Source: Aquisphaera giovannonii
GTDB taxonomy: Bacteria; Planctomycetota; Planctomycetia; Isosphaerales; Isosphaeraceae
NCBI RefSeq assembly: GCF_008087625.1
Contig: NZ_CP042997.1
Span: 1,798,001 to 1,862,000, forward strand
Length of the DNA stretch: 64,000 bases
Direction: 5' to 3'
In this document: piece by piece, positions 6,987 through 34,088 of the stretch
Layout: the number at the start of each line of letters is the position of its first letter
How positions within the stretch are numbered: position 1 is the stretch's first letter
The notes under the pieces: generated by a model
What the model was told of the DNA's origin: nothing
What the model saw: the letters and a program-made list of their open reading frames with translations, nothing else
Databases searched by the model: none
Translations under genes and position numbers: made by a program

Positions 6987-7913
6987 TCAGCTCGTGATCC
7001 CCTTCGTCAGGTGCATGAACGCCGTCTCCAGGTTGATCTCGTCCTCCTTGAAGAGCGTCAGCTCGAATCCCTCGTTCACCAGGCGATTGGCGAGGAAGCC
7101 GTACTGGTGGACCCCCTCGTGGAGCTTGACGACGAGGACGCCGTTCTTGTCCTCCACCGTCTCCACCTCCGGCTGGCCCTCCAGCAGGTTCGCCGCGTCG
7201 GTCAGGCGGTCGCTGACGGCGATGTTCAGGACGATGTCGCTGCGGACCTGCTTCATGACCTTGCTGACCTCGTCATTGATCAGCAGCTTGCCCTGCTCGA
7301 TGATGCCGATCTTGTTGCAGATGTCGGCGAGCTCCGGGAGGATGTGGCTGGAGACGAGGATCGTCTTGCCCATCGCCCGGAGCTCCTTCAGGAGGGCCCT
7401 CATCTCGATCCGGGCGCGGGGGTCGAGGCCCGAGGCCGGCTCGTCCAGCAGCAAAACTTGCGGGTCGTGAAGCAGCGTCCGGGCCAGCCCGAGCCTCTGC
7501 GTCATGCCGCGGGAGAGGCTGGTCACCAGGGCGTCGCGCTTGTAGGTCAGGTCCACCAGCTCCAGGACCTCCTCGCAGATCTTCCGACGGGCGGCGCCCT
7601 TGATCCGGTAGGCGGAGGCGAAGAACTCCAGGTACTCGATGACCTTCATGTCGTCGTAGACGCCGAAGAAGTCCGGCATGTAGCCGATGACGCGGCGGAT
7701 CTCCTTCGAGCCGGTGTAGATCGAATAGCCGCAGACCGTCGCCTCGCCCCAGCTCGGGTTGAGGAGGGTGGCGAGGATCCGCATCGTCGTGGTCTTCCCG
7801 GCACCGTTGGGGCCGATGAAGCCGTAGACGTCCCCCTGGTTGAGCGTCAGGTTGAGGCGATTCAGGGCGTACAGGTCGCCGTACATCTTCGTCAGGTCGT
7901 TGGTCTCGATCAT
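6987..7913 (-). CDS. ABC transporter ATP-binding protein
   Basis: Cytoplasmic ATPase of an ABC-2-type exporter, 308 residues. Walker A is GPNGAGKTTT near residue 37, the signature is SLSRGMTQRLGLAR, Walker B is VLLLDEPASGLDP and the H-loop is SSHILPE. The C-terminal 90 residues form the small extra domain found in NatA/GldA-like ATPases. The reading frame continues upstream through the preceding gene's territory, but the ATG at 7913 is the first position where family similarity begins. It lies 56 nt downstream of a large membrane protein that probably works with it. No separate ABC permease is seen, so the membrane partner is either that protein or encoded elsewhere. Confidence 0.93.
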   Translation of the reverse strand: MIETNDLTKMYGDLYALNRLNLTLNQGDVYGFIGPNGAGKTTTMRILATLLNPSWGEATVCGYSIYTGSKEIRRVIGYMPDFFGVYDDMKVIEYLEFFASAYRIKGAARRKICEEVLELVDLTYKRDALVTSLSRGMTQRLGLARTLLHDPQVLLLDEPASGLDPRARIEMRALLKELRAMGKTILVSSHILPELADICNKIGIIEQGKLLINDEVSKVMKQVRSDIVLNIAVSDRLTDAANLLEGQPEVETVEDKNGVLVVKLHEGVHQYGFLANRLVNEGFELTLFKEDEINLETAFMHLTKGITS

Positions 7914-17608: not shown

Positions 17609-19252
17609 ATGCCGGCATCGCCTCGGGAGCCAGCGGACGCCTTCCTGGCTCGCCACGGAGCGTGGAGGCCGGGCCATCCGCTGCCGCGGATCGCCCTCGC
17701 CGTGACGGCCCTCGCCGGGCTGGGCACCTGGGGGATCGGCATTCGCAGCATGGCTTACGACCACGACGAGGTCACCAAGGCGCATTCGATCTGGATGGCC
17801 GGGCGGGGCTTGATGCCCTACGTCGATTTCCTCGACTCGCACCCGCCCTATTTCCGCCTCCTGACTCCGCTCCTCGGGGACGCGACCATCGATCCGGTCG
17901 CGTTCCTTGAGCGTTTGCGCGTCTTCAGCCTCGCGGGCAACCTGTTGTTCCTGTGCGGAATCGCGTCAGTCGGACTCATTTCCACACGCCCGGGCCGTGA
18001 GGCGGACGGCAACGGCAACGGGGACCAGGGCGGGATTTCGCGAAGCCGGGGCATCGACCGGAGATCCTGGGGACTGCTCGGCCTGTTGGCGATCGTCCTG
18101 CACCCCACGATCCTCACCGATCTGGTCGAGTTCCGCACCGACGGCTGGGCCTACGCCCTGATCGCATGGAGCCTCTTCCGGTTCCTGCGCCGGCCCGACT
18201 GCGCGGCTCGATACGTCGAATTCGGCCTGGTCAGCACCGCGGCCGGACTGCTCCTGTGCCCGAAACTGGCGATCCTGCCGCCGATGGTCGTCGGGCGTTA
18301 CCTGGTGGCCTCGAGAGGGGCCTTCCGTTCGCGGCTGGCCCATGCGGCCGGATACGCCGCGGGAATCGCGGCCGCATTCGGACTCTCCGCCGCGTATCTC
18401 CTGTCGCAGGGAATCCCCCTCAGGCGTGCCTACGACATGGTCTTCGCCTTCAATGCGATCCACAACGCACACGCCGGGTACCCGTCGCGACTGCGGAATA
18501 GCATCTTCGAGGACACCCTGCCGTTCGCGATCTTCGCGGCGGGGATTGTGGCCTGGGCCTGGTGCGCGGCCGCGCGCCGAGGCAAGGATGGCGGCGCCGC
18601 CGTCTACCCGTCCGTGCTGGCCTGGCTGATCCTCCAGGCGGCCCTCGTGGCCTACCCGTTCAAGCAGTATTATGCGCCGTGGTTCCTCGTCGGCTCCATG
18701 TTCGCGTTCCCGCTCGGCGGCGTGGCCCGCGCGATTCCGCGGCGGGCGGCGACGCCGATCTTCCTCGTGGCGTCCGCGGCCCTCCTTTTCCAGACGATCG
18801 GGCTGGCACGCTCCTGGACGGCCGCGGACGAGGCCGGGGCCCAGGGGCGGCTGATCCGCTGGATGGGGCGCGTCTCGATCGCAGGGGACCGGGTGGCCGC
18901 CGCCGCGCCCCTGCATCCGATCGATCGACCGGACGCCTTCACGCTCTGGTTCAGCACGTTCGATCCGTCGGGCTTCGACGCGGAGCAGGTCTTACGACGC
19001 ATCCCCGCCCTGCGTGAGCTGGCCGAGCCGGCCCGATACCGCGAGGAGCTCGAGCGCAATCCGCCCGCGCTGGTCGTCATCTCCGGCGACTGGCGAGTGG
19101 CCCCCCGCGCGGCGGGGCAGCAGGCCGCGATCACGGATTTCTTCCGCCGGCACCCGTACCACGCGGTCCGCGTCGGGAACGCCCGGTTCGCGCTACGGCC
19201 GGATCGTTATGAACGCGCCCGTGCTGGCGGCTTGCTGTCGGAGACTCACTGA
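17609..19252 (+). CDS. GT39-like multi-spanning membrane protein
   Basis: 547 residues with roughly ten hydrophobic segments and a soluble C-terminal tail. The first periplasmic loop contains YDHDEVTKAHSIWMAGRG then MPYVDFLDSHPP, the pattern (acidic pair, then PYxDFxxxHPP) seen in GT39/PMT-type polyprenyl-phosphate glycosyltransferases. Such enzymes transfer a sugar from a lipid carrier to proteins or glycans at the outer face of the membrane; donor and acceptor are unknown. Starts 19 nt after the aminotransferase and has GAGGGG close to its ATG. Its last 7 bp overlap the convergent gene at 19246. Confidence 0.78.
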   Translation: MPASPREPADAFLARHGAWRPGHPLPRIALAVTALAGLGTWGIGIRSMAYDHDEVTKAHSIWMAGRGLMPYVDFLDSHPPYFRLLTPLLGDATIDPVAFLERLRVFSLAGNLLFLCGIASVGLISTRPGREADGNGNGDQGGISRSRGIDRRSWGLLGLLAIVLHPTILTDLVEFRTDGWAYALIAWSLFRFLRRPDCAARYVEFGLVSTAAGLLLCPKLAILPPMVVGRYLVASRGAFRSRLAHAAGYAAGIAAAFGLSAAYLLSQGIPLRRAYDMVFAFNAIHNAHAGYPSRLRNSIFEDTLPFAIFAAGIVAWAWCAAARRGKDGGAAVYPSVLAWLILQAALVAYPFKQYYAPWFLVGSMFAFPLGGVARAIPRRAATPIFLVASAALLFQTIGLARSWTAADEAGAQGRLIRWMGRVSIAGDRVAAAAPLHPIDRPDAFTLWFSTFDPSGFDAEQVLRRIPALRELAEPARYREELERNPPALVVISGDWRVAPRAAGQQAAITDFFRRHPYHAVRVGNARFALRPDRYERARAGGLLSETH

Positions 19253-20799
19253 TCCGCCGGGCCGGGGAAGCACAGGCCGTCTCCGTCGTCCGGGAGACCG
19301 GGCACGGGCGTCTTCGTGAGCCGATCGAGCCCCGGATATCCCTTCCGCACGAAGACCACGCAACAACGGTCCCGATAGAGCGCGGTCCACCCGTCGGTCC
19401 GGGCCAGCAGGTTCATGGTCGGCGAGCCCAGGGGCGTCAGCACGATGTCCGTCGGCGGCCCCGTCCGAAGGAGTGCATCCCAGGCACCCGTCCCGCGCTC
19501 GAAGTCGCGAGACTGGCGATACGCCTCGTCGGAGTAGAGCGTCTCGCGACGTCCGTCCATGGAGACCTTCACCTTCGGGCCAAGCTGCCAGAGGACATAC
19601 TCCCCCCAGTCGAAGGGGACCGCCATGTTCCCGTCCGCTCCCCCCAGCCGCAGATACTCGACGGCCCTCGCGGGAAAGCTGAAGAAGTAAGGGTCCAGTC
19701 GGACGCATCGCAGCCGGCCCGGCACCAACGCGGCGAGGATCAGGGCGGCCGCCAGGCCGGCCGCGGCGACCGGACCTCCCCCGCCACGCCCCGGCGAGAG
19801 GCTCGACGTCGCGCGGTCCCACATTTTCGCGATCGAGCCGCCGCCGAGCACGATCATCGCCAGTGCGAACAGGGGATAATGTCGATTCGAGACCATCGGC
19901 AGGACGGCGGAGACGGCGAGCACCAGGAGCGACTCCGGCAACGGCCGGCGGCGGCTCTCCGCCACGCTCACGAGCACCGTCGCCAGCAACCCCAGGACGA
20001 TCACCCCCGGCAGGCTCGTCAGGACCAGGGGAGACCACTCGGTGATCTCGGGGCGGGGGACGGTCGCCGTCCGGAGCAGGAAGCGGACGAGGCCGAACCC
20101 CCAGGGATTCAATGCCGGCGCGACCCCGCACGCGAGGGCGAGGGCGGCCAGCGGCCAGGCGGCGCGGAGCCTCGCCGCGCGGGTCGGCTGCTGCCGGACG
20201 ACGCGGACCAGCCGCACGCCGATCCAGAGGGTGACCGCGGCGACGCCCGCGAGGACGCCCCCGTGCAGGTTGGCCCACGCCGCCAGGAGCGGGGGTAATA
20301 GCCACCCCCTCCACGAGGTCGGCCGTCCGCCCTCGCCCTCCAGGATCAGGAGCAGGGCCAGGTAGCCCAGATACGTGAAGGCCTGGGGCCGGACGGTCCC
20401 CAGCCCCATCCGGAACGGGATGCTCGCCGCGATCAGCAGGGCTGCGCGAGGGAACGCCCCGAGCCCCTTGCGGCGAAGGTGGACGTCGCAGGCGGCGACG
20501 ATGGCCAGGGCGATCGCGAGCTTCCCGACGATCAGGCCGCGGGCTCCCAGGTGGTCGTACGCCGAGGCGAAGGCCGCCTCGGCCAGCCATTCGTGATTGA
20601 CCCAGGGCTGGCCCTCGGACCGATACGAATAGATATCTTGCTGGAGGATCGAGCCCGTCCGGAGCAGGTCCTGGCCGAACCGGACGTGCCCCCAGAGGTC
20701 CGGGTCGGCCACGGTGTCGGCGAACCAGAAGGCGCACCAGGCCGCCAGCAGGGCCGACGCGGCTGCCGCATGCCATCGTCGCGAGCCCGATCGATTCAT
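19246..20799 (-). CDS. Multi-spanning membrane protein, possibly glycosyltransferase-like
   Basis: 517 residues, about nine predicted helices. The N-terminal loop VADPDLWGHVRFGQDLL followed by SEGQPWVNHEWLAEAAF is typical of a conserved bacterial membrane family often found near glycosyltransferases; no catalytic activity is established for it. The C-terminal 120 residues form a soluble domain with VPFDWGEYVLWQLGPKVKVS and DGRRETLY. Start at 20799 overlaps the TGA of the upstream gene as ATGA, so the two are translationally coupled; a start at 20859 would lie deep inside the upstream gene. Converges with the neighbouring GT39-like gene. Confidence 0.8.
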   Translation of the reverse strand: MNRSGSRRWHAAAASALLAAWCAFWFADTVADPDLWGHVRFGQDLLRTGSILQQDIYSYRSEGQPWVNHEWLAEAAFASAYDHLGARGLIVGKLAIALAIVAACDVHLRRKGLGAFPRAALLIAASIPFRMGLGTVRPQAFTYLGYLALLLILEGEGGRPTSWRGWLLPPLLAAWANLHGGVLAGVAAVTLWIGVRLVRVVRQQPTRAARLRAAWPLAALALACGVAPALNPWGFGLVRFLLRTATVPRPEITEWSPLVLTSLPGVIVLGLLATVLVSVAESRRRPLPESLLVLAVSAVLPMVSNRHYPLFALAMIVLGGGSIAKMWDRATSSLSPGRGGGGPVAAAGLAAALILAALVPGRLRCVRLDPYFFSFPARAVEYLRLGGADGNMAVPFDWGEYVLWQLGPKVKVSMDGRRETLYSDEAYRQSRDFERGTGAWDALLRTGPPTDIVLTPLGSPTMNLLARTDGWTALYRDRCCVVFVRKGYPGLDRLTKTPVPGLPDDGDGLCFPGPADQ

Positions 20800-22544
20800 C
20801 CTCCCCCGCTCCCCGCCCCGCCCTCGGCCGTCGCCCGCCCCTCCCCGATCGCCTGCCATTTCAGGACCTCATCGTACGGGAAGACCCAGATCAGGGGGAC
20901 GCCGAACCGGCCGTAGACCTTCGCCGGGGCGGCGTGGGCGATGAGGTGCCGGTCCAGCGGGCTGAGGTCCCCCGGGCGATTCTGGACCACGTACCAGGCG
21001 AAATCACCCGGGTCGCTCGGCAGGATGCCCGGCCGGAGCCCGCCGGTCCGCCTCAGATAGAGCCACGAGGTGGGATAGCGGGCGAACCGCACCTTCCGGC
21101 CCGGCGGGGAATGTTCATTCAACCAGTCGAGGACTTCGGGCTGGAGCGCGTCCCAGTAATACGTCGGCTCCATCCCCATCCGAACGGCGCCGGGAAGTCC
21201 TCCGAACACCGGATTGAAATAGGAAAGGGGCACCGGTATCATCACGCCGACGGTCACGCCTCCCTCGACGACCGCGACGACGATGAGCAGGCCGCCCACC
21301 CAACCAAGGCGGCCCACGACCCATCCCGCACCGAGCCCGACAAGTACCGCCAGGATGCCGAACGCCGGCAGGAACTGGCGCACGCCGTCGTGTCCCGGGG
21401 TGTGCGGGAGGGCCCTCAACGCCAAGAGGAAGGCCCAGTGGATGACGAAGAGCGTCCCGACCGCATCTCTCCTCTCCCTCGCAAGCGTCCAGGCAACCCC
21501 CGCGACGGCCAGGATCAGGAAGCCGGCGGGTGTCGCCAGCACCGTCCAGACGATCGTGTTGTACCAGGGGAGCGACTCTCCGGGCGTGTCGTAGATCCGC
21601 CCCAGGAAGAGCGTCTTCAGGGGCGTCGTCTGCGCCCTCGTCAGGTTCGATCGCAGGAACCGATCGACGCCCAGGATCGGGTCATGCCACCACGGCGGGA
21701 CCAGCAGGACCAGCAGGGGGATCGCCAGGACGCAGCCCGCCAGGAGCGTGAGCGCACCGCCGCGGCTCCGGGCGACGGCCGACCACGCCAGGAAGGGGAC
21801 CGGCAGCAGCCAGCCGGTGAATTTGGTCCCCATCGCCAGCGCGATCAGCGCGGCGAAGGCGAGGATCCACCCCGGCCGAGGCCGCTCCCCCGGGCGGCCC
21901 GGCTCGACCTCGATGGCCTTGACGAAGGACAGGCAGGCGAGGGTCCAGAAGCTCGTCAACAGCCCGTCGTAAGTCGCGTAGTGCGCCAGGGCGAAGAGGT
22001 GCGGCTGGGCCATCCAGGCGCCGGCCGCGGCTGCGGCCGCCCAGGATCCGAAACGCCTGCGAAGGAACGCGAAGATCGCCCCGCACGTCAGGCTGAACAC
22101 GAGCATCGGCCCCAGGCGAGCCTTCGGCAACGGCTCGCGCCAGGGGGTCAAGATGTCGCCCGCCAGGCCCACCAGGGCATACACCGGCGGATGCCCGTCC
22201 GGCTCCTCGCGGGCGAAGGGCCAGAACCAGTCGATCGCCGGCGGGCGGAGCAGCTTCGCGCGGCTGTCCATCTCCTCGGGCCGCGGCGCGATGAGGCGGT
22301 TCGGGGGGACGAGTTCTTCGTAGGGCGGCCTCCATCCGCTCGCGTACGAGGCCGGCCGACCCATTGCGGCGAACCACTGCCGGATCCGTTCCTCGCGGCC
22401 CAGGGTGTAGCCCTCGTCCCAGACGATGACCAGGTAGGGCTCGGTGGTGAGCATGAGCGCCAGGCAAAACGACGCCACCCCGACGCCCCATGTCCGAGAC
22501 CCAGGGCTGACGTCATCAAGCCGGGCGCGACGTGATGGCATCAT
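20796..22544 (-). CDS. GT39/ArnT-like glycosyltransferase
   Basis: 582 residues, polytopic. First helix ends with [16 protein letters not shown], matching the (D/E)-E-x-Y motif of ArnT/PMT enzymes that take sugars from polyprenyl phosphate. The second loop holds [10 protein letters not shown] and [17 protein letters not shown] soluble C-terminal part follows from about residue 445 with [18 protein letters not shown]. The acceptor may be lipid or surface glycan. GAGGAG lies 4-5 nt before the first of two adjacent ATGs at 22544. It is co-oriented and coupled to the downstream membrane protein. Divergent from the DUF1559 gene with a 202-bp AT-richer gap. Confidence 0.82.
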
Positions 22545-22573
22545 GAATCTCCTCGCCCTTTTCGTATACTATT

Positions 22574-22603
22574 TTGTTCGTTCATGGTTCGAGCGGGTAT
22601 ATC
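22574..22603 (+). promoter_or_regulatory. Candidate promoter for the DUF1559 gene
   Basis: In the least GC-rich part of the divergent gap, TTGTTC (22574-22579) and TATATC (22598-22603) are 18 nt apart, which would give a 5' leader of about 135 nt before the ATG at 22747. Partial consensus only. Confidence 0.27.
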
Positions 22604-22746
22604 GTCCTGAGAGGCCATCCTCTCGGCGCCGAATTCCGCGCTTCCCCGGCCTCTCACCGATCCTCGTTGAGGATCGTCGTTCGCTGCCCCTCTCCTCGCG
22701 TCATCGCCCTCTCAATCAGTCCATTCACTTCGATGGAGGCAAGACT

Positions 22747-23862
22747 ATGCCGAGGCGCAGGACTGGTTTCACGCTCATCGAGTTGCTCGTGGTCATCGCG
22801 ATCATCGCGGTGCTCATCGCGCTGCTGCTCCCCGCGGTGCAGAGCGCCCGCGAGGCGGCTCGCCGCGCCCAGTGCATCAACAACCTGAAGCAGCTCGGCC
22901 TCGCGGCCCACAACTACCTCTCGCAGAACAACGTCCTGCCCCAGCACACGACCTTCCCCGCGGGGCAGATCCAGAGCTGGGGCTGGAGCTACTCCTGGGC
23001 CATGGCGGTCGCCCCCTTCCTGGAGCAGGGGACGATGTTCAACAACTTCAATTTCTCTGCCGGGATGTTCGGGAATTCGGCCACGCAATCCGCACCGGGC
23101 GGCATGACCCTGCAGCACGGTAATGACACCATCGTGTCCATGCAGCTCGCCGCATTGATCTGCCCGTCCGACTCCGTGAGCGAAGGCCCCCAGCCGGGAT
23201 ACGGTCGATCCAACTACGTCGGAAACATGGGCGGTCCGGGTCAGATGGGGATGTTCACGGGCACGATCGTCTCGGGGTCGATCGGATGGGGCCCGGACAC
23301 CGGCAACGCCGGCGTCGTCGGCCTCCAGAAGATCACCGACGGGACGTCCAATACGGCCCTATTCAGCGAACGGCTCGTGGGTTTGAGGAACGCCGCCCCA
23401 GCCCAGGTGACCCGCGCGAGCAACAATTTCAAGCGTGCGACCTTCGACGCGCCGACGCCGTCGGTGAACGCGGGGCAAGGGACAGGGTTGGCGGGTGCTC
23501 AAGCCTTCGTCCAGGCTTGCCAGGGCCTGCCCGGCACGACCGCGGCCAGGAACACCTGGGGGAGCGGCTCGTACTGGTTCGCCGGCTATCCCCTGCACGT
23601 CGTCGTCAACGACTACCTGCATGCCGGCCCGCCCAATGGCCCCGCCTGCAACAACACGCAGGGTTCGTTCGTCTCCCTATCCTGGCTCTCGTTCGTCCAG
23701 CCTCACGGCTCGGCGCCCCCGACGAGCAACCACCCCGGCGGCGTCAACATCTGCTTCTCCGACGGATCCGTCAAGTTCATCAAGGACACGGTGGGCCTCC
23801 AGCCGTGGTGGGCATTGGGGACCCGCTCCGGCGGTGAGGTCATCAGCGCCGATAGCTACTGA
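22747..23862 (+). CDS. DUF1559 (SBP_bac_10) prepilin-like protein with H-X9-DG motif
   Basis: 371 residues. The N-terminus has a type IV prepilin/pseudopilin signal: short basic leader, cleavage after Gly in [20 protein letters not shown], then a hydrophobic helix. The body is the DUF1559 domain, greatly expanded in planctomycetes, and the C-terminus has the H-X9-DG signature [15 protein letters not shown]. These proteins are thought to be assembled on, or anchored at, the cell surface by a type II/IV-type machinery; their exact role is not known. GGAGG lies 7 nt before the ATG. A small lipoprotein gene follows after a 195-bp gap holding a large hairpin, an arrangement common in planctomycetes. 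Confidence 0.95.
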
Positions 23863-24057: not shown

Positions 24058-24270
24058 ATGAAGAGATATCGCTTGCCCCTGTGTACCGTGTTCGTCGCTT
24101 CTTTGATGGCGGGTTGCGGGGACAGTGGCCCGACTTCGACGGCCAACCCGGGCGGTGGGCTCGTCCAGCAGACGCCCGAATTCAAGGAGTACATGAAGAC
24201 GGCCGGGGCCAAGATGGCGGGGAGGGGGAACCCCAACAAGGCCGCGGCTGCCCCCGCAAAGAAGAAGTGA
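24058..24270 (+). CDS. Small lipoprotein
   Basis: 70 residues. A basic N-terminus and a hydrophobic stretch end in the lipobox LMAGC, so C20 would be acylated. The mature part is short, with a Gly/Pro-rich linker and a Lys/Ala-rich end (AAAAPAKKK). It follows the DUF1559 gene in the same orientation; such small lipoproteins often accompany DUF1559 genes in this phylum and could help anchor or assemble them, but this is unproven. AGAGGTGG precedes the ATG. The convergent sulfatase-fold gene is separated by a bidirectional hairpin. Confidence 0.85.
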   Translation: MKRYRLPLCTVFVASLMAGCGDSGPTSTANPGGGLVQQTPEFKEYMKTAGAKMAGRGNPNKAAAAPAKKK

Positions 24271-24342: not shown

Positions 24343-26262
24343 TCAGGGCCCGGGGCGGCCCGGCATCGCGGCCGATCGGAGGGAGTCCCGGAACCGCCGA
24401 AGATAGGCGTCCTCGATAATCCCGGCGCCTCGCTCGGCGTCGAGCTGTTTCAGCAGCAGCCCGCGACATGCAGCCAGCGACGGCTGCGAATCGGCCTCGG
24501 CCGCACGGTCGAACGTCTCCTGCGGATCCCGCCCCACTTCGAAGAGCTGTTCGCCGCCGAGGCCGTCCCTCACATAATGATGGCCGCCCGCCATCATCGA
24601 GAACTTGAGGCGACGAGACTTCCGAGCGTCGTCGAGCTCGACTGCCTTCGGGTCGTACACCAGCTCGGAGAAGGCGTAGGAAACCGGCCCCCCAGGCACG
24701 CTCCGTTCGCCGCCCCAGCAGGTGGCGAGCGAATGTCCGGGGAAGCGCAATTCCTCGCGCAGCCCCGCGAGGTCCACCGCGGTCGCCGGGAGGTCGCGCA
24801 GGCTGACCGGCTCGGCGATCGTTCGACCCGCCGGTGCATCGGGGGAGACGATGACCAGCGGGACCCACACCTCCTCCATATAAACGCTGCCACCGTGCCC
24901 GAAACGGCCATGCTCGCCGAACGCCTCGCCGTGATCCGACGTGACAATCACGGTGGTGTTGGCGAGCGTGCCCAGCCGGTCCAGCTCCCCCAGCAACCGA
25001 CCGAGTTGGTCGTCGAGCGACGCGATGCAGTCGTCGTAGCAGTCGCGTGCCAGGACGGCCTCCCTCAGGCCGAAGTTCCGAGTGGGACGGGCGAACTGCA
25101 TCAGGAATTCCTCGTCGGCGGGCCCCTGCGGCCGGGTGCCGAACCGACCCGCGAACGCCCTCGGCGGAATGTACGGGTCGTGGGCATCGTAATAGTTCAG
25201 GAATGCGAAGAAGGGGCGATCAACCCTCCGGCCGGCCAGCCAGCGCAGGAATGCCTCGTTGAGTCTCGCCCCATCGCGTGACTGCCGCTCGATCCATTTC
25301 TGCTCGAAGTAATCATCCCGGTAGGCGACCTGCCGGAGTAGCCAGTTCCCCGCCGCCGTCCGGCCGAGCGCCGAGGTCGGAGTCAGGGGGTAGTCCTCGT
25401 AGTGGAGGAATCCGCGATTTAGCCCGTTCTCGTAGCTGCAGAAACTGGTGTTGGCCGCGAATCCGGCCGTCTCGTAGCCCCGGCTCGCGAGAGCCGCGGA
25501 CAGCGTGGGCACCGACGGGTCGAGGTGATGTTCCCACTGCGAATTGATTCGGAAGGGCCATTCGCCGGTGAGGAAGCTGGCGTGAGATGGAAACGTCCAT
25601 GGCGCGGTGACGGCCGCGCGGTCGAACCGAACTCCCCGGCGAGCCCAGCGTTGAAGGTTCGGCGTCGTCTCGCGGGGATAGCCGTAGGCCGAGAGGCTCG
25701 AGGCCCGGACCGTGTCCCAGACGATCAGGAGGACGTTTCGCGCCGAGGAAGGGGCGAGGGGCAGGGCCGCCCTCGTCGTCCGCTCCCGGAAGGCCCAGCG
25801 CACGGAGGTGATCGCCGCGAGCGAGACCAGCAGGCCCATGAGCACCGAGAGCGCGAGCACCGTCCTCCTTGGAGATCGGAAGACCATCCGGGCCAGCCAA
25901 AGGCCCGATGGGCGGGCCAGCCCCGCGGCCAGGAGGAAGGTGGCCGCGCCGTAGAGCGGCAGTCGCAGCAACGCCAGCCAGAGGGCGAGCGTCACGACGA
26001 GCCACGATGCGGCCCTGGGAGAGATCCGCCCCGGCAGGATGCGCCCCGCGATGGCGATCGCCAGGCCGACGAGCGACAGGGTGCCCATGTGGACGAGCGG
26101 CACCGTCCAGGCGAAATCAGAGCCGGCCTCGAACGAGCTCGATTCGTTCCAGGAGTACTTCCTGAGGACGATGAGGCCCACCTCGAGGAACCCGCCGCAG
26201 AGCCCCAGGGCCATCGACGGCAGGATCATGCGGGGGGCGGGTGATGACGGCGTCGCGGGCAA
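24343..26262 (-). CDS. Membrane-anchored sulfatase-fold (alkaline phosphatase superfamily) protein 1
   Basis: 639 residues. Four or five N-terminal helices (residues about 12-170) anchor an external domain of the sulfatase/phosphotransferase fold. The start of that domain is NVLLIVWDTVRASSLSAYGY (one metal Asp), and the late metal site is VTSDHGEAFGEHGRFGHG. At the catalytic position, where sulfatases have C/S-x-P-x-R, it has APWTFPSHASFLTG: the Cys/Ser is Thr and the Arg is His, so formylglycine cannot form. A Thr nucleophile is what LtaS- and EptA-type phosphotransferases use. The start is TTG at 26262, with GAGG 5 nt upstream; the next ATG, at 26229, has no site. It follows the tiny membrane protein by 12 nt. 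Confidence 0.85.
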   Translation of the reverse strand: MPATPSSPAPRMILPSMALGLCGGFLEVGLIVLRKYSWNESSSFEAGSDFAWTVPLVHMGTLSLVGLAIAIAGRILPGRISPRAASWLVVTLALWLALLRLPLYGAATFLLAAGLARPSGLWLARMVFRSPRRTVLALSVLMGLLVSLAAITSVRWAFRERTTRAALPLAPSSARNVLLIVWDTVRASSLSAYGYPRETTPNLQRWARRGVRFDRAAVTAPWTFPSHASFLTGEWPFRINSQWEHHLDPSVPTLSAALASRGYETAGFAANTSFCSYENGLNRGFLHYEDYPLTPTSALGRTAAGNWLLRQVAYRDDYFEQKWIERQSRDGARLNEAFLRWLAGRRVDRPFFAFLNYYDAHDPYIPPRAFAGRFGTRPQGPADEEFLMQFARPTRNFGLREAVLARDCYDDCIASLDDQLGRLLGELDRLGTLANTTVIVTSDHGEAFGEHGRFGHGGSVYMEEVWVPLVIVSPDAPAGRTIAEPVSLRDLPATAVDLAGLREELRFPGHSLATCWGGERSVPGGPVSYAFSELVYDPKAVELDDARKSRRLKFSMMAGGHHYVRDGLGGEQLFEVGRDPQETFDRAAEADSQPSLAACRGLLLKQLDAERGAGIIEDAYLRRFRDSLRSAAMPGRPGP

Positions 26263-26274
26263 GGGATCCTCAAC

Positions 26275-26445
26275 TCATCCCGCCGGCGTGCCGGGTTTGC
26301 GACCGGCCCGGGGCCAGAACTTCGAGGCCGCCTTGCGCCCGAATGCGAGCGCGTTGCGGCCGAACATCAGGACGACCCCGATGGCCCCCGCGAGAACCGA
26401 GGCCACGGGTAGCATCGTCTCCGGGCCGGCGTAGGCTAGCAGCAT
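26275..26445 (-). CDS. Tiny YAGP-type membrane protein
   Basis: 56 residues: a short N-terminus with LAYAGPET, one hydrophobic helix (PVASVLAGAIGVVLMFG) and a basic tail ending KFWPRAGRKP. Similar tiny proteins with a YxGPG motif and one helix are remembered as neighbours of alkaline-phosphatase-fold membrane proteins in several phyla; that link is from memory. GAGGG is 6 nt before the ATG at 26445. A longer in-frame version from a TTG at 26469 would have no better site. Only 12 nt separate its stop from the TTG of the sulfatase-fold gene, so the two are surely co-expressed. Confidence 0.78.
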   Translation of the reverse strand: MLLAYAGPETMLPVASVLAGAIGVVLMFGRNALAFGRKAASKFWPRAGRKPGTPAG

Positions 26446-26573
26446 GGAAGGCCCTCGTTCGGATACCAACGACAGGTGCAGGATCGCGGCGGGTCATGAC
26501 TTCCGCCGCGACGCCGGGAGCGCCGGTGATTCTACACGATCCGGCTCCCTCATGTCGCTCCCTCCACCGACGT

Positions 26574-28571
26574 TCACGGGCGGAATCGGGAAGGGGACAG
26601 GGGCCCCTCGGTGAGCCGGTCCGCATCGCGATGCATCTCTTCCAGCCTGGGCCGCAGCGACGGATCCGCCGCGAGGTCGTCCCGCTGGCGAGGATCCTTC
26701 GCGAGGTCGTGCAGCGCCTCGGTCCCCTCCTTCTCCCGGCGGATGTAGGACCAGCCGGCCTCCGTCAGGCCGACGATCGGCCACCTCGGCGCGTGGACCC
26801 ACTCGCTCGGATCTGCCCCGAACGCGTCCAGCGGGACGACCTCCGACAGCGCCCGGCTGACCGCCGGCGTCGGGTCGCCGCGCCGAGTCCCCTCCGGCCC
26901 CCAGAGTCTCGCGAGCGACTCCCCGGGGAGCGTATCGCCTCCCGGGGCCCGCCCCAGGACGTCCAGGATGGTCGCCGGCAGGTCGCGAAGGCTGACCGCC
27001 GCGGGGACCGTCAGCGGCTCCGAGAGGCCGCCCGGGGGCACGATGATGAGTGGGACGTGGACCTGGGCCTGGTAGAGGCTCGTCCCGTGCCAGAAGACCC
27101 CCGGCTGCTCGCCGAAGCTCTCGCCGTGGTCGGCCGTGACGATCAGCCACGTGCGGTCGAGGACCGATCGCCGGGCGAGGTCGTCGAGCAGCCGGCCGAG
27201 CCGCTCATCCAGGTCGGCGACGCAGTCGTCGTAGAAGTCGCGGCCGAGCTCGACCTGCTCCGCCGTGGGCGCCCTCTTCACCAGCGAGATCCAGTCCCTC
27301 AGAAGGTTCGCGTCCCTCTCCGCCCGGGCGCGAGACCGGAATCGATGGATGCCCGGCTCGGGGATCTCGTAGGGATAGTGGGCGTCGTAGAGGTTCAGGA
27401 AGGCGAAGAAGGGCCGGTCCGGCTGGGGTCGGGACTCGAGCCAGGCGACGAGCTCGCGGTGGATGTCCGCGGCCTGCCTGCGGTTGACGATCAGGAGCCG
27501 CGCAAGGGCGTCGACGGCGGGGGAGAGCGCACTCACCCCCAGCCAGTCCTCCAGGAGCCGGCTCGCCGCCTGCAGGCCCTGCATGGGACGACCGACCAGC
27601 TCCGACCGGCCGAGCGCGGTGAGCCTCGGGAACGAGTCGTCGTGGTACACCGCGAAGCCTCGGGCCAGCCCCGAGTCCCTGGAACAGTACCAGCGATTGC
27701 CGACGAATCCCGCGGTGGCGAATCCGCGGCGGCCGAGGGCCTCCGCGAGGGTCGGATGCGTCCCGTCCAGCGGCGTGTTCCACCCGGCCGACAGCTCATG
27801 CGGCCATCTCCCCGTGAACAGGCTCGCATGCGAAGGCAGCGTCCACGAGGCCGTGGCCACGGCGCGATCGAACCGGATCCCGCGGGCCGCCAGCTCCTCG
27901 AGCGTCGGGCTCGTGCGTCGCGGATAGCCGTAGACGCTGAGGTGCTCCGCCGCCACGGTATCCAGGACGATCAACAGGACGTTGGGCGTCCCCGGCGGCG
28001 GGGAGGGGCTCGCGGACGCCTGCAACCCGCCGCGGGCGTCCCGTTGCCAGATGGTCGTGCCGACCGCGACGGGGATCAGGATCAGGACCGGAAAGGTCAT
28101 CCCGACGACGCGGCGGAAACGGGCCTCCCGACGTTCCGCCATCGGCACGAGCCTCGCGGCGCAGCCGGCCGCCAGGAGGACGCCGGCGACCCCGTAGATG
28201 CGCGGCGACGCCGCCCAGAAGGCCGGCAGCAGGGTCGCCGTGCCCAGGATGCGGGCCGCCCACCACCGGATACGCCCCCCGAGGAGGAGCACGGCCGCCG
28301 CCAGCATCAGCCCCAGGCCCAGGAAGACGACCAGGTTCGCGACCGGGAGGAGCCAGCCGTAATGGCGCGTCGTCCAGAGGAACTGGTTGACGTCGAAGAA
28401 CCGCTTCCGCACGGCGAAGGCCAGCGCCTCGAGAGAGCCGGCCAGCAGCCCGCACCAGGCGGCGAGCGCGACGAGTCCGAGCGGGCCCGGCGCAACGGGG
28501 GCGTCGGGCCTCGTGGGCGGGGTCTTCGCCACGGCGTCCGGTTCGGCGACGGGGGTGCAACTCTCGATCAT
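26574..28571 (-). CDS. Membrane-anchored sulfatase-fold protein 2
   Basis: 665 residues, a paralogue of the sulfatase-fold protein at 24343. N-terminal helices lie between about residues 30 and 175. The catalytic region reads ASWTLPSHASLFTG, again with Thr at the nucleophile site and His in place of the usual Arg. The first metal segment is VLLIVLDTVAAEHLSVYGY, in which the Arg seen in protein 1 is Ala; the second is VTADHGESFGEQPGVFWHG. The C-terminal part ends in a short Asp/Glu/Arg tail. The reading frame stays open far upstream, but the ATG at 28571 is where the anchor starts and it faces the divergent TPR gene across 150 bp. Confidence 0.84.
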   Translation of the reverse strand: MIESCTPVAEPDAVAKTPPTRPDAPVAPGPLGLVALAAWCGLLAGSLEALAFAVRKRFFDVNQFLWTTRHYGWLLPVANLVVFLGLGLMLAAAVLLLGGRIRWWAARILGTATLLPAFWAASPRIYGVAGVLLAAGCAARLVPMAERREARFRRVVGMTFPVLILIPVAVGTTIWQRDARGGLQASASPSPPPGTPNVLLIVLDTVAAEHLSVYGYPRRTSPTLEELAARGIRFDRAVATASWTLPSHASLFTGRWPHELSAGWNTPLDGTHPTLAEALGRRGFATAGFVGNRWYCSRDSGLARGFAVYHDDSFPRLTALGRSELVGRPMQGLQAASRLLEDWLGVSALSPAVDALARLLIVNRRQAADIHRELVAWLESRPQPDRPFFAFLNLYDAHYPYEIPEPGIHRFRSRARAERDANLLRDWISLVKRAPTAEQVELGRDFYDDCVADLDERLGRLLDDLARRSVLDRTWLIVTADHGESFGEQPGVFWHGTSLYQAQVHVPLIIVPPGGLSEPLTVPAAVSLRDLPATILDVLGRAPGGDTLPGESLARLWGPEGTRRGDPTPAVSRALSEVVPLDAFGADPSEWVHAPRWPIVGLTEAGWSYIRREKEGTEALHDLAKDPRQRDDLAADPSLRPRLEEMHRDADRLTEGPLSPSRFRP

Positions 28572-32118: not shown

Positions 32119-32534
32119 GGCATCCTCCCCATTCGAGCCGGCGGGGAGGGCCGAGGGGAGCGGGGTCCCCGATCCGGCGATCGGACGGTCGGGAGGGGCA
32201 CGAGAAGGGTCCGCCGTGCACCGACCGCACGGCCCGGGCTCCCTCGCACGGCTCGGCATGCCCGTCCCGAGCATCCGACAACTCCATTGTCCGCCTTGCG
32301 GCAGGCGGAATCAAAGGGGCTCTCGCGAATCCGGCGACCGACCGGGTCCGCCTCTCGGGGTCGCCACGGCGAGCTGGGCGGGATATAGCGGCGATCGCTG
32401 GCCCCATGCCCCGGAATCCCGCCGGCCGGCGACGAACTTGCTAGGACTGCGGTGGCGAGGGGCCGGGCTTCCTGTTAGAAGTCTTTCTCCCCCTTGATTC
32501 ACATTCCGATCTCAGCGGCGGCGTGCCCTCGACG
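32119..32534. other. 416-bp gap between the kinase-like gene and hpnR
   Basis: Holds the start regions of two divergent genes. No ORF with a ribosome-binding site is seen. A clear hairpin lies at 32290-32309. The 60 bp before hpnR are AT-richer (TTGATTCACATT near 32495-32510) and are the likeliest place for its promoter. No cobalamin riboswitch was recognised despite the B12-binding domain of the product. Confidence 0.5.
32290..32309. repeat. Perfect 7-bp inverted repeat in the divergent gap
   Basis: TCCGCCT (32290-32296) and AGGCGGA (32303-32309) flank a TGCGGC loop. It is too far from either gene's stop to be a terminator and could be a protein-binding site or a genome-wide palindrome. Confidence 0.4.
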
Positions 32535-34088
32535 ATGAAAATCCTGGCGGTCCATCCAAGTTCGTTGATGTACACCAAGATCTTCCTCAGGCTCGAGCCC
32601 CTCGGGATCGAGCTGATCGCCGCCGAGCTCCGGCGGGCCGGCCACGACGTCCGGCTGATCGACCTCCAGGTCGAGGATCACGGGGCCTACTTCCGGCTGA
32701 TCCGGGAATGGCGCCCGCACGCCGTCTCCTTCTCGTGCAATTACCTGGCGAACGTGCCCGAGGTGATCGACCTGGCCCGCGAGACGCGTGCCCTCCTGCC
32801 CGACGCCACCATCTTCGTCGGCGGCCACAGCGCGTCATTCATCGCCGCGGACCTGATCGAGCACGCGGGCGGGGCGATCGACTGCGTCCTGAAGGGGGAG
32901 GCCGAGGCCAGCGTGGCCGCGCTGGTGGAGGCGGCGGCCGACCGCGATCCGCGCGGCCTGCTGGAGGTCCCCGGGGCGGTCACGGCCGCCGGGTCCGGGC
33001 CGCGCCCCGGATTCTCCGGGGACCTGGATTCGCTCCGCCCCGCCCGGGACCTGCTCCGGCACCGTCGGAAGTACTTCATCGGCGTGCTCGACCCGTGCGC
33101 CTCGATCGAGTTCAGCCGCGGCTGCCCCTGGGATTGCTCCTTCTGCAGCGCCTGGACCTTCTACGGGCGTAGCTATCGCGTGAAGTCGGCGGAGGCCGCG
33201 GCCGATGAGCTGGCGAGCATCCGAGAGCCCGGCCTCTTCATCGTCGACGACGTGGCCTTCATCCAGGCCGAGCACGGCATGGCCATCGGCGAGGAGGTCG
33301 CCCGCCGGGGCATCCGCAAGAGCTACTACCTGGAGACGCGGGGCGACGTCCTGCTCCGCAACAAGGACGTCTTCCGGTTCTGGAAGACCCTGGGGCTCCA
33401 GTACATGTTCCTCGGCGTCGAGGCCATCGACGAGGAGGGATTGAAGCGCTTCCGCAAGCGCATGACCCTCTCGAAGAACTTCGAGGCCCTGGAGTTCGCC
33501 CGTTCGCTCGGCATCATGGTGGCGATCAACATCATCGCCGACCCGGCCTGGGACCGACGCCAGTTCGAGGTGATCCGGCAGTGGTGCCTGGAGATCCCGG
33601 AGATCGTCAACATCAGCGTGAACACGCCCTATCCGGGGACCGAGAGCTGGCTCACCGAATCGCGGCGGATCACCTCGCGGGACTATCGCCTCTACGACAT
33701 CCAGCACGCCGTCCTCCCGACGCAGCTGCCCCTGGATGAATTCTACGGGGAGCTGGTCCGGACGCAGCAGGTGCTGAACCGGAAGCACCTCGGCTGGTCG
33801 GCGGCGAAGGCGCTCGCCGGCATCCTCGCGCGCAACCTCGCGAGGGGGCAGACGAACACGCTGAAGATGCTCTGGAAGTTCAACAGCGTCTACGACCCGG
33901 CCCTCCAGATCGCCGACCACTCCGCGCCGGTCCGGTACGAGATGACACTCCCTCCGCCTCACCGCGAGGTCATCGACCCGCACAGCCTGTACGTGCACCC
34001 GCCGCGGGGTCGGAACGGGAGGTCGATCGACGACGCGACGGAGCGGTTCGTCGACCGGACGCGGGCCGGGGGCAACCCCGTGGCGTGA
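32535..34088 (+). CDS. hpnR: Hopanoid C-3 methylase (B12-binding radical SAM)
   Basis: 517 residues. The N-terminal cobalamin-binding domain starts MKILAVHPSSLMYTKIFLRL and continues with SFSCNYLANVPEVIDLARET and FVGGHSASF, which match HpnR closely from memory. The radical-SAM cluster motif is GCPWDCSFCSAW (CxxxCxxC). HpnR adds a methyl group at C-3 of hopanoids, membrane lipids that stiffen membranes in low oxygen or stationary phase. No hopanoid synthesis genes (shc, hpnH) are in the window, so it is an orphan here. The ATG at 32535 has no strong Shine-Dalgarno; a GTG 12 nt before is an alternative. Confidence 0.85.
   Translation: MKILAVHPSSLMYTKIFLRLEPLGIELIAAELRRAGHDVRLIDLQVEDHGAYFRLIREWRPHAVSFSCNYLANVPEVIDLARETRALLPDATIFVGGHSASFIAADLIEHAGGAIDCVLKGEAEASVAALVEAAADRDPRGLLEVPGAVTAAGSGPRPGFSGDLDSLRPARDLLRHRRKYFIGVLDPCASIEFSRGCPWDCSFCSAWTFYGRSYRVKSAEAAADELASIREPGLFIVDDVAFIQAEHGMAIGEEVARRGIRKSYYLETRGDVLLRNKDVFRFWKTLGLQYMFLGVEAIDEEGLKRFRKRMTLSKNFEALEFARSLGIMVAINIIADPAWDRRQFEVIRQWCLEIPEIVNISVNTPYPGTESWLTESRRITSRDYRLYDIQHAVLPTQLPLDEFYGELVRTQQVLNRKHLGWSAAKALAGILARNLARGQTNTLKMLWKFNSVYDPALQIADHSAPVRYEMTLPPPHREVIDPHSLYVHPPRGRNGRSIDDATERFVDRTRAGGNPVA

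Follow-up and report, generated by a model that had tools for sequence, protein, structure and literature searches.

The locus and its genes

The window analyzed here is a 64,000-nucleotide stretch of the genome of the planctomycete Aquisphaera giovannonii (contig NZ_CP042997.1, positions 1,798,001 to 1,862,000). On its minus strand, two genes encoding membrane-anchored proteins of the alkaline phosphatase superfamily, P2 and P1, lie on either side of a gene for a 56-residue membrane protein, Y, and the order of transcription is P2 (26574-28571), Y (26275-26445), P1 (24343-26262). P1-like enzymes are collectively termed S, and a and b denote the PF01663-type proteins encoded next to Y in other genomes. 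P1 and P2 are probably extracytoplasmic, Thr-dependent phosphodiester transferases or hydrolases, and Y their dedicated membrane partner. The two long reading frames, the 56-residue frame that separates them, and the motifs T-F-P-S-H (P1) and T-L-P-S-H (P2) are found where the initial annotation had placed them.

24343..26262, minus strand: P1, an S gene; 639-residue membrane-anchored Thr-type alkaline phosphatase superfamily protein with a TTG start
25768..26238, minus strand: P1 residues 9-165, five transmembrane helices predicted by AlphaFold2 models
25594..25596, minus strand: codon of T223, predicted P1 nucleophile (W-T-F-P-S-H); invariant in 42 rows and aligned with the Cys/formylglycine position
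24931..24936, minus strand: codons of D443-H444 (D-H-G-E), predicted P1 metal ligands; invariant in 42 rows and in 104 tree rows
26275..26445, minus strand: Y, 56-residue single-helix membrane protein (M-L-L-A-Y-A-G-P-E-T...), predicted N-out, C-in
26574..28571, minus strand: P2, second S gene; 665-residue Thr-type paralogue of P1, 38% identical
27840..27842, minus strand: codon of T244, predicted P2 nucleophile (W-T-L-P-S-H), from motif reading and the P1/P2 alignment

P1 was annotated as starting from a TTG 12 nucleotides after the Y stop codon, and this spacing is confirmed. The closest homologous locus (L089, from genome G002 of the same genus) also has a TTG 12 nucleotides from its tiny gene, and it has no ATG at the place of the window's alternative downstream ATG, which makes the TTG start credible.

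Active site of P1 and P2

P1 and P2 share 38% identity over 635 residues, membrane part included. P1 matches PF00884 with 161.8 bits (3e-47) and P2 with 140.4 bits (1e-40), the cut-off being 25, but because the PF00884 model takes in Thr-type proteins too, the match does not decide sulfatase membership. The cut-off of 23 for PF01663 (type I phosphodiesterase) is also passed, by P1 with 53 bits and by P2 with 38, scores far below those for PF00884. None of the NCBIfam equivalog cut-offs for sulfatase, EptA, or YejM is passed by either protein.

The Cys/Ser position of sulfatases is a Thr in both proteins, T223 in P1 and T244 in P2. In an alignment of 42 P1-like proteins, drawn from the window's genome and others of its family, D183, T223, H227, D359, H361, D417, D443, H444, E446, and H456 are invariant, as are W52 and P55 in the helix region, and the C/S-x-P-x-R signature is absent from all rows, with an invariant His at the place of the Arg. 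A broader set of 104 rows, made of P1-like proteins from several phyla and used for the phylogenetic tree, never varies at D183, D443, H444, and H456; its position 223 is Thr in 99 rows and Ser in five (three of 20 rows labelled gem, one of two labelled acidY, and one of 35 labelled other). Among 212 segments of a wider locus set, which is biased to the Thr type by having been collected with patterns and profiles built from these same motifs, 77 are gapped at this position and the remaining 135 have 129 Thr, four Ser, and two Cys, both Cys segments being classical C-x-P-[ST]-R. The invariance of T223 in the 42 rows is more than chance. The proposal of a Thr nucleophile is borne out by its invariance in the 42 rows and by surrounding putative ligands of the kind seen in Thr-type phospho-enzymes; given this Thr and these ligands, formylglycine-type hydrolysis of sulfate esters, against which the initial annotation had also argued, is very unlikely.

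Could P1 and P2 nevertheless be true sulfatases that employ an unusual, unmodified nucleophile? They match PF00884, their best PDB matches are mostly sulfatases, and in hhalign comparisons of the P1 family with Escherichia coli proteins AslA (1.3e-16 over 311 columns) is a stronger match than LapC (1.8e-10, 294), EptA (2.8e-9, 100), or OpgB (2.1e-4, 140). This explanation is nonetheless highly improbable: the signature Arg has become an invariant His, Thr stands in for the second N-terminal Asp in the majority of P1-like proteins of this genome, and, as stated in an excerpt of the SulfAtlas paper (PMC5066984), no formation of formylglycine from threonine has ever been demonstrated.

Y is coupled to S enzymes in three phyla

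Y represents a family of single-helix proteins with the motif Y-x-G-P-[ED] that has no match to any Pfam or NCBIfam family. It is conserved as a protein: Y5, P8, P13, and S16 are invariant in 40 rows, and 40 of the 43 Y frames of the chosen regions have a start codon at a distance of 3-8 residues upstream of the conserved Tyr. Hydropathy and charge in the 40 rows indicate one helix, a head with a net charge of 0 to -2, and a tail of 0 to +7, from which, by the positive-inside rule, an N-out/C-in topology is predicted. A single-sequence search of a general contig collection retrieved no Y, and profile searches later found it in other phyla.

When 59 related genomes were searched with Y, 30 gave a match at E<=0.01, and the sole one outside the window's family, f1, is weak (G040). 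P1-like genes (E<=1e-40) are likewise present in 30 of the 59 genomes, all in f1. Among the 37 f1 genomes, 29 possess both genes, none Y only, one a P1-like gene only (G023, 68% complete), and seven neither (Fisher 7.8e-7, kinship ignored). Since genera g1 and g19 each hold both states, the pairing does not reflect one event. The two genes are also physically close: for 42 of the 59 Y places in f1 a P1-like place lies no more than 6 kb away, and for 31 of the 42 no more than 1 kb; in 39 of the 42 both are on the same strand, and in 34 of those 39 the P1-like gene is downstream of Y. Conversely, 48 of 140 P1-like places in f1 have Y within 6 kb.

The same association is found in other phyla. 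Y is detected at E<=0.001 in 22 of 298 sampled Gemmatimonadota genomes, 21 of them at E<=1.2e-9, and the P1-like profile (E<=1e-100) picks out the same 21 genomes and no others, the 22nd (G840, E 7e-4) having none. The chance of this exact overlap is 1/C(298,21), or 1.2e-32, kinship ignored. Of the 22 strong Gemmatimonadota Y places (L274-L295), 16 have S, a, or b after Y on the same strand, two (L288, L293) have S on the opposite strand, and four contain Y alone (L284 and L289, on short contigs, and L291 and L295). Strong Y matches occur in two of 297 sampled Acidobacteriota and in two of 294 sampled Planctomycetota, one of them the window's genome and the other G305, in which Y likewise comes before S. 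Y is genuinely coupled to S enzymes across three phyla, and the tiny coupled partner suspected in the initial annotation, together with its co-occurrence with the enzymes across genomes, is real. Weak matches to Y (E from about 4e-4 to 1e-2, in G040, G080, G108, G164, G253, G277, G281, G444, G601, and G840) were treated as chance; the weak-Y loci of G444 and G601 (L298 and L299) were inspected and contain no S, a, or b.

A small open reading frame of comparable appearance was noticed in another planctomycete (L176, just before position 7764). It has a signal-peptide-like start, the motif YIDPGTG, one helix, and a basic tail, and it ends about 11 bp before a PF01663-type a gene, the place that Y takes elsewhere. 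The YIDPGTG protein has no Pfam or NCBIfam match; small proteins of the Y-I-D-P-G-T-G type are probably widespread.

A second enzyme family and the Y-a-b-S order

Clustering of the genes neighbouring Y in the 43 chosen regions places a P1-like gene in 33 and a PF01663-type gene in 19 (30 copies, each encoded on the same strand as Y, with the PF01663 assignment resting on three cluster members scanned with Pfam); one or both types occur in 39 regions. The PF01663-type neighbours form two subgroups, here called a and b. Genes in the complete order Y-a-b-S are present in Isosphaeraceae (L108, L120, L122, L126, L127), in Gemmatimonadota (L276, L281, L290), in an Acidobacteria metagenome-assembled genome (MAG; L140), and in L296, from the same phylum as L140, where a stretch of 3.2 kb precedes S. 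Incomplete forms (Y-a-b, Y-a-S, Y-b-S, Y-S, and S-Y-S, the last being that of the window) are commoner. A simple hydropathy scan of stop-to-stop frames gave no clear sign of a membrane helix in either a or b (best 19-residue mean 1.77), and both are presumably cytoplasmic. One a protein has no PDB match at E<=0.001. No further neighbour cluster stands consistently by Y in the 43 regions; the cluster containing the window's DUF1559-type gene (cluster 2) was considered as a partner and discarded, being present in nine of the 43 at scattered distances and on either strand. A defence-system role was rejected, because P1, P2, Y, one a, and one b protein have no match at E<=0.001 to the PADLOC anti-phage defence profiles.

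In a quick phylogenetic analysis (IQ-TREE, 104 rows, midpoint root), the proteins of Isosphaeraceae group together (46 rows, three named MAG rows among them; Shimodaira-Hasegawa-like approximate likelihood ratio test, SH-aLRT, 99), next to a group of 29 rows that is mostly from Gemmatimonadota (SH-aLRT 95) and includes the Acidobacteria L140. P1 and P2 are located in separate parts of the Isosphaeraceae group, each beside its own G002 counterpart, and they are thus old paralogues and not a recent tandem copy. P1-like homologues are also found in Myxococcota and haloarchaea as well as in Gemmatimonadota and Acidobacteriota, and the enzymes are thus not confined to planctomycetes.

Structure and relation to known enzymes

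The AlphaFold2 model of P1, built with the 42-row alignment, has a mean predicted local distance difference test score (pLDDT) of 91.0 and a predicted template modelling score of 0.92. In the model, five helices (9-38, 50-75, 82-98, 105-126, and 131-165) precede the catalytic domain, a layout that agrees with the multi-helix anchor claimed initially. EptA and LtaS possess a five-helix anchor before the catalytic domain. The best Foldseek matches of the model are the phosphonate monoester hydrolase 4uph, SpAS2, and choline sulfatase. With VIA-align, in which rows within 1 Z unit are considered tied, S1 sulfatases score Z 30-35 and the periplasmic domain of YejM (6vc7) Z 31.3 over 327 residues with a root-mean-square deviation (rmsd) of 3.1; the whole model aligns with full-length PbgA (6xlp) over 466 residues with Z 31.1, but with an rmsd of 18.8.

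The initial annotation called both proteins LtaS/EptA-like. The likeness holds for the predicted Thr nucleophile, the ligands, and the membrane layout, whereas membership of the EptA family does not, and the nearest relatives lie on the side of S1 sulfatases and phosphonate monoester hydrolases. As in EptA and MCR, phosphoethanolamine transferases whose reaction moves phosphoethanolamine from phosphatidylethanolamine onto lipid A, an acid precedes the putative Thr nucleophile by 40 residues (D183-T223), D-H-G-E is followed by a His 12 residues on (H444-H456), and a further His lies in an H-x-P-Y region. The EptA residues given in an excerpt of PMC7576196, E240-T280 and H453-H465, have the same spacings of 40 and 12. 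Judged by conserved residues and spacing, P1 would combine a Thr nucleophile and its acid with D-H and two His ligands in the manner of EptA/MCR. However, the first ligand is Asp in P1 and Glu in EptA, the hhalign alignment with E. coli EptA extends over only 100 columns, and P1 and P2 score no more than 35 bits where the EptA/MCR cut-offs are at least 493. EptA membership was therefore rejected (NCBIfam, 35.2 bits for P1 and 27.1 for P2 versus 561; domain model, 32.3 and 29.1 versus 500). P1 and P2 also share with LtaS, the lipoteichoic acid synthase, a Thr nucleophile, one acid, and D-H ligands, as far as the LtaS residues are listed in the excerpt of PMC7576196. There was no LtaS model among the NCBIfam matches of P1 and P2 at E<=1, in a library that was not checked for the presence of such a model.

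P1 resembles YejM/PbgA/LapC in having five predicted helices and a periplasmic-type domain, with equivalents of Thr302 and Asp268 of YejM, whose 5TM (five-transmembrane-helix) domain is described in the same excerpt (PMC7576196). E. coli LapC is annotated as a lipopolysaccharide signal transducer. P1 and P2 might be sensors or regulators that bind lipid or lipopolysaccharide, signal via the small partner, and have residual or no catalysis. Such a role would suit a dedicated small membrane partner, the whole-length alignment with PbgA, and the close fit of the periplasmic domain, yet it is improbable: the catalytic set is better kept than in YejM, where R451 takes the place of the P1 D-H according to the PMC7576196 excerpt, D183, D443, H444, and H456 are invariant over the 104 rows, and the NCBIfam YejM model (NF038282) gives 26.2 bits for P1 and 29.0 for P2 versus a cut-off of 825.

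S1 sulfatases, choline sulfatase, and phosphonate monoester hydrolases share PF00884 with P1 and P2 and are nearest to them in sequence and fold. They differ in their C/S-x-P-x-R signature, where P1 and P2 have Thr and His, and in being soluble or secreted instead of membrane-anchored. The T-x-P-x-H motif occurs in the PF01663 family (type I phosphodiesterase/nucleotide pyrophosphatase), the family that a and b match and whose cut-off P1 and P2 pass; P1 and P2 differ from it in their far higher PF00884 scores, and a and b differ from P1 and P2 in having no predicted membrane anchor. These similarities bear on the possibility that P1 and P2 are extracytoplasmic Thr-type phosphodiesterases or phosphonate-ester hydrolases, in which water resolves the phospho-enzyme, phosphodiesters are scavenged or trimmed, and Y is a small stability factor. 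It would fit the phosphonate monoester hydrolases (4uph, 2w8s, 2vqr) and choline sulfatase among the closest matches, the PF01663 scores, and the phosphatase activity that the excerpt of PMC7576196 attributes to YejM, a Thr relative with a 5TM domain. Five helices with invariant W52 and P55 would be much for a scavenging hydrolase, however, and the expansion of P1-like proteins to as many as 17 matches in one related genome fits acceptor diversity at least as well; we regard this alternative as rather unlikely.

A proposed role for P1, P2, and Y

What chemistry might P1, P2, and Y perform together? The Thr-type superfamily members EptA, LtaS, YejM, and the nucleotide pyrophosphatases act on phosphate esters, and on this ground phospho rather than sulfo chemistry is quite likely for P1 and P2. 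Transfer and hydrolysis have about even chances. P1 and P2 would reside in the inner membrane, with five N-terminal helices and an extracytoplasmic alkaline phosphatase superfamily domain, in which a metal held by D183, D443, and H444 would activate T223. T223 may then attack a phosphodiester to form a phospho-threonine intermediate, and the phospho group could be passed to a hydroxyl of an envelope acceptor or to water, assisted by H361 and H456. The one to many S paralogues per genome may serve different substrates or acceptors. The single helix of Y would place its conserved Y-x-G-P-[ED] end outside, beside the S domain, and its basic tail inside; in the full Y-a-b-S operon, Y would also accompany two PF01663 enzymes without predicted membrane anchors. 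We infer that Y holds, gates, or presents substrate to the enzymes. The data establish the fold class, the conserved residues, the five helices of the P1 model, and the genomic coupling; the phospho chemistry, the metal, the topology, transfer, and the role of Y go beyond them.

Several observations weigh against this proposal. The closest solved structures, by sequence as well as by fold, belong to sulfatases and phosphonate monoester hydrolases rather than to transferases, and the P1 membrane part modelled alone (pLDDT 91.1) has no clear match to solved structures (best Z 6.3). That EptA, LtaS, and PbgA are not among its listed matches, and that MCR-1 (9nww) is there at Z 3.7, is uninformative either way. 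Among the 22 tree rows with a gem or acidY label, position 223 is Ser in four, and in one row of each label position 361 is Asn and in one of each position 227 is Gln. As to the partnership, 92 of the 140 P1-like places in f1 are without Y within 6 kb, near-full-length S proteins (E 1e-125 or better) were found and no Y detected in G273, G172, and G215 of family f73, and Y is accompanied by neither enzyme family in four of the 43 regions (L107, L118, L125, L128). The locus in the window itself has neither an a nor a b gene. Three of the regions where Y lacks S, a, and b (L107, L118, and L128) are all from genus g14 and have a common local gene order.

A broader and decidedly tentative view takes Y, a, b, and S together as a trans-envelope phospho-transfer system not described before, with a and b on the cytoplasmic side, the five-helix S enzyme outside, and the one-helix Y joining them. 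In Isosphaeraceae, Gemmatimonadota, and some Acidobacteriota, the system would modify a lipid or glycan of the envelope, and Y would be the first of a wider class of small Y-x-[GD]-P membrane peptides. All three enzymes would belong to the alkaline phosphatase superfamily and use Thr, and the Y-x-G-P-[ED] end would be the essential outside contact. Searches of open-licence papers turned up no description of a Y protein, of the five-helix clade that has Y as its partner, or of the Y-a-b-S order. As far as these searches go, the clade with Y and the gene order are new, the catalytic type being known. P1, P2, and Y point to a little-studied cell-envelope system; Y marks a family of accessory proteins that is missing from the Pfam and NCBIfam versions searched, and its near-perfect pairing with the enzyme in three phyla is a concrete, testable handle on the envelope chemistry of bacteria for which genetic leads are scarce.

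Other PF00884 proteins and neighbouring genes

The genome (10.5 Mb, three contigs) has 33 PF00884 places, of which the 28 that span the domain were read and five partial ones left out. The nucleophile position is Cys in 18 and Ser in one, eight have T-x-P-[SA]-H, and one has T-L-P-T-R. All eight P1-like proteins are of the Thr type and account for the T-x-P-[SA]-H proteins, whereas 19 of the 20 other full-length places have Cys or Ser. PF00884-based sulfatase counts are often used to infer a sulfated-polysaccharide diet in planctomycetes. Because nine of the 28 full-length "sulfatase" matches here are without a formylglycine precursor, such counts are inflated. That some PF00884 proteins have Thr had been noted before: the excerpt of PMC5066984 reports Thr in 30 of 59 PF00884 seed sequences and warns of false annotation. 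The T-L-P-T-R protein (G000:C1:8194511-8195638, L086) is of a Thr type unlike P1, with the Arg kept and the N-terminal Asp replaced, and a 987-codon frame (G000:C1:4397243-4399507, L003 and L005) contains two classical Cys-type PF00884 domains in tandem.

Three large membrane-type genes at 17609-22544 were initially described as encoding GT39-like proteins and taken as a sign of envelope decoration. The description suits the protein of 20796-22544, which matches PMT_2 (2.8e-13), but the other two have no Pfam match at E<=0.1, and the three have no mutual BLASTP similarity at E 1e-3. Counterparts of all three are present in L089; among the regions scanned, homologues of the trio occur only in this locus from the same genus. 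As the neighbourhood recurs only within the genus, it does not show envelope decoration, and these genes were dropped as part of the system. A 70-codon lipoprotein-like frame (24058-24270, plus strand) is convergent to P1 and lies right behind a DUF1559/SBP_bac_10 pilin-like gene (22444-23862). Elsewhere in the window, 32523-34088 on the plus strand encodes the hopanoid C-3 methylase HpnR (887 bits versus a cut-off of 650).

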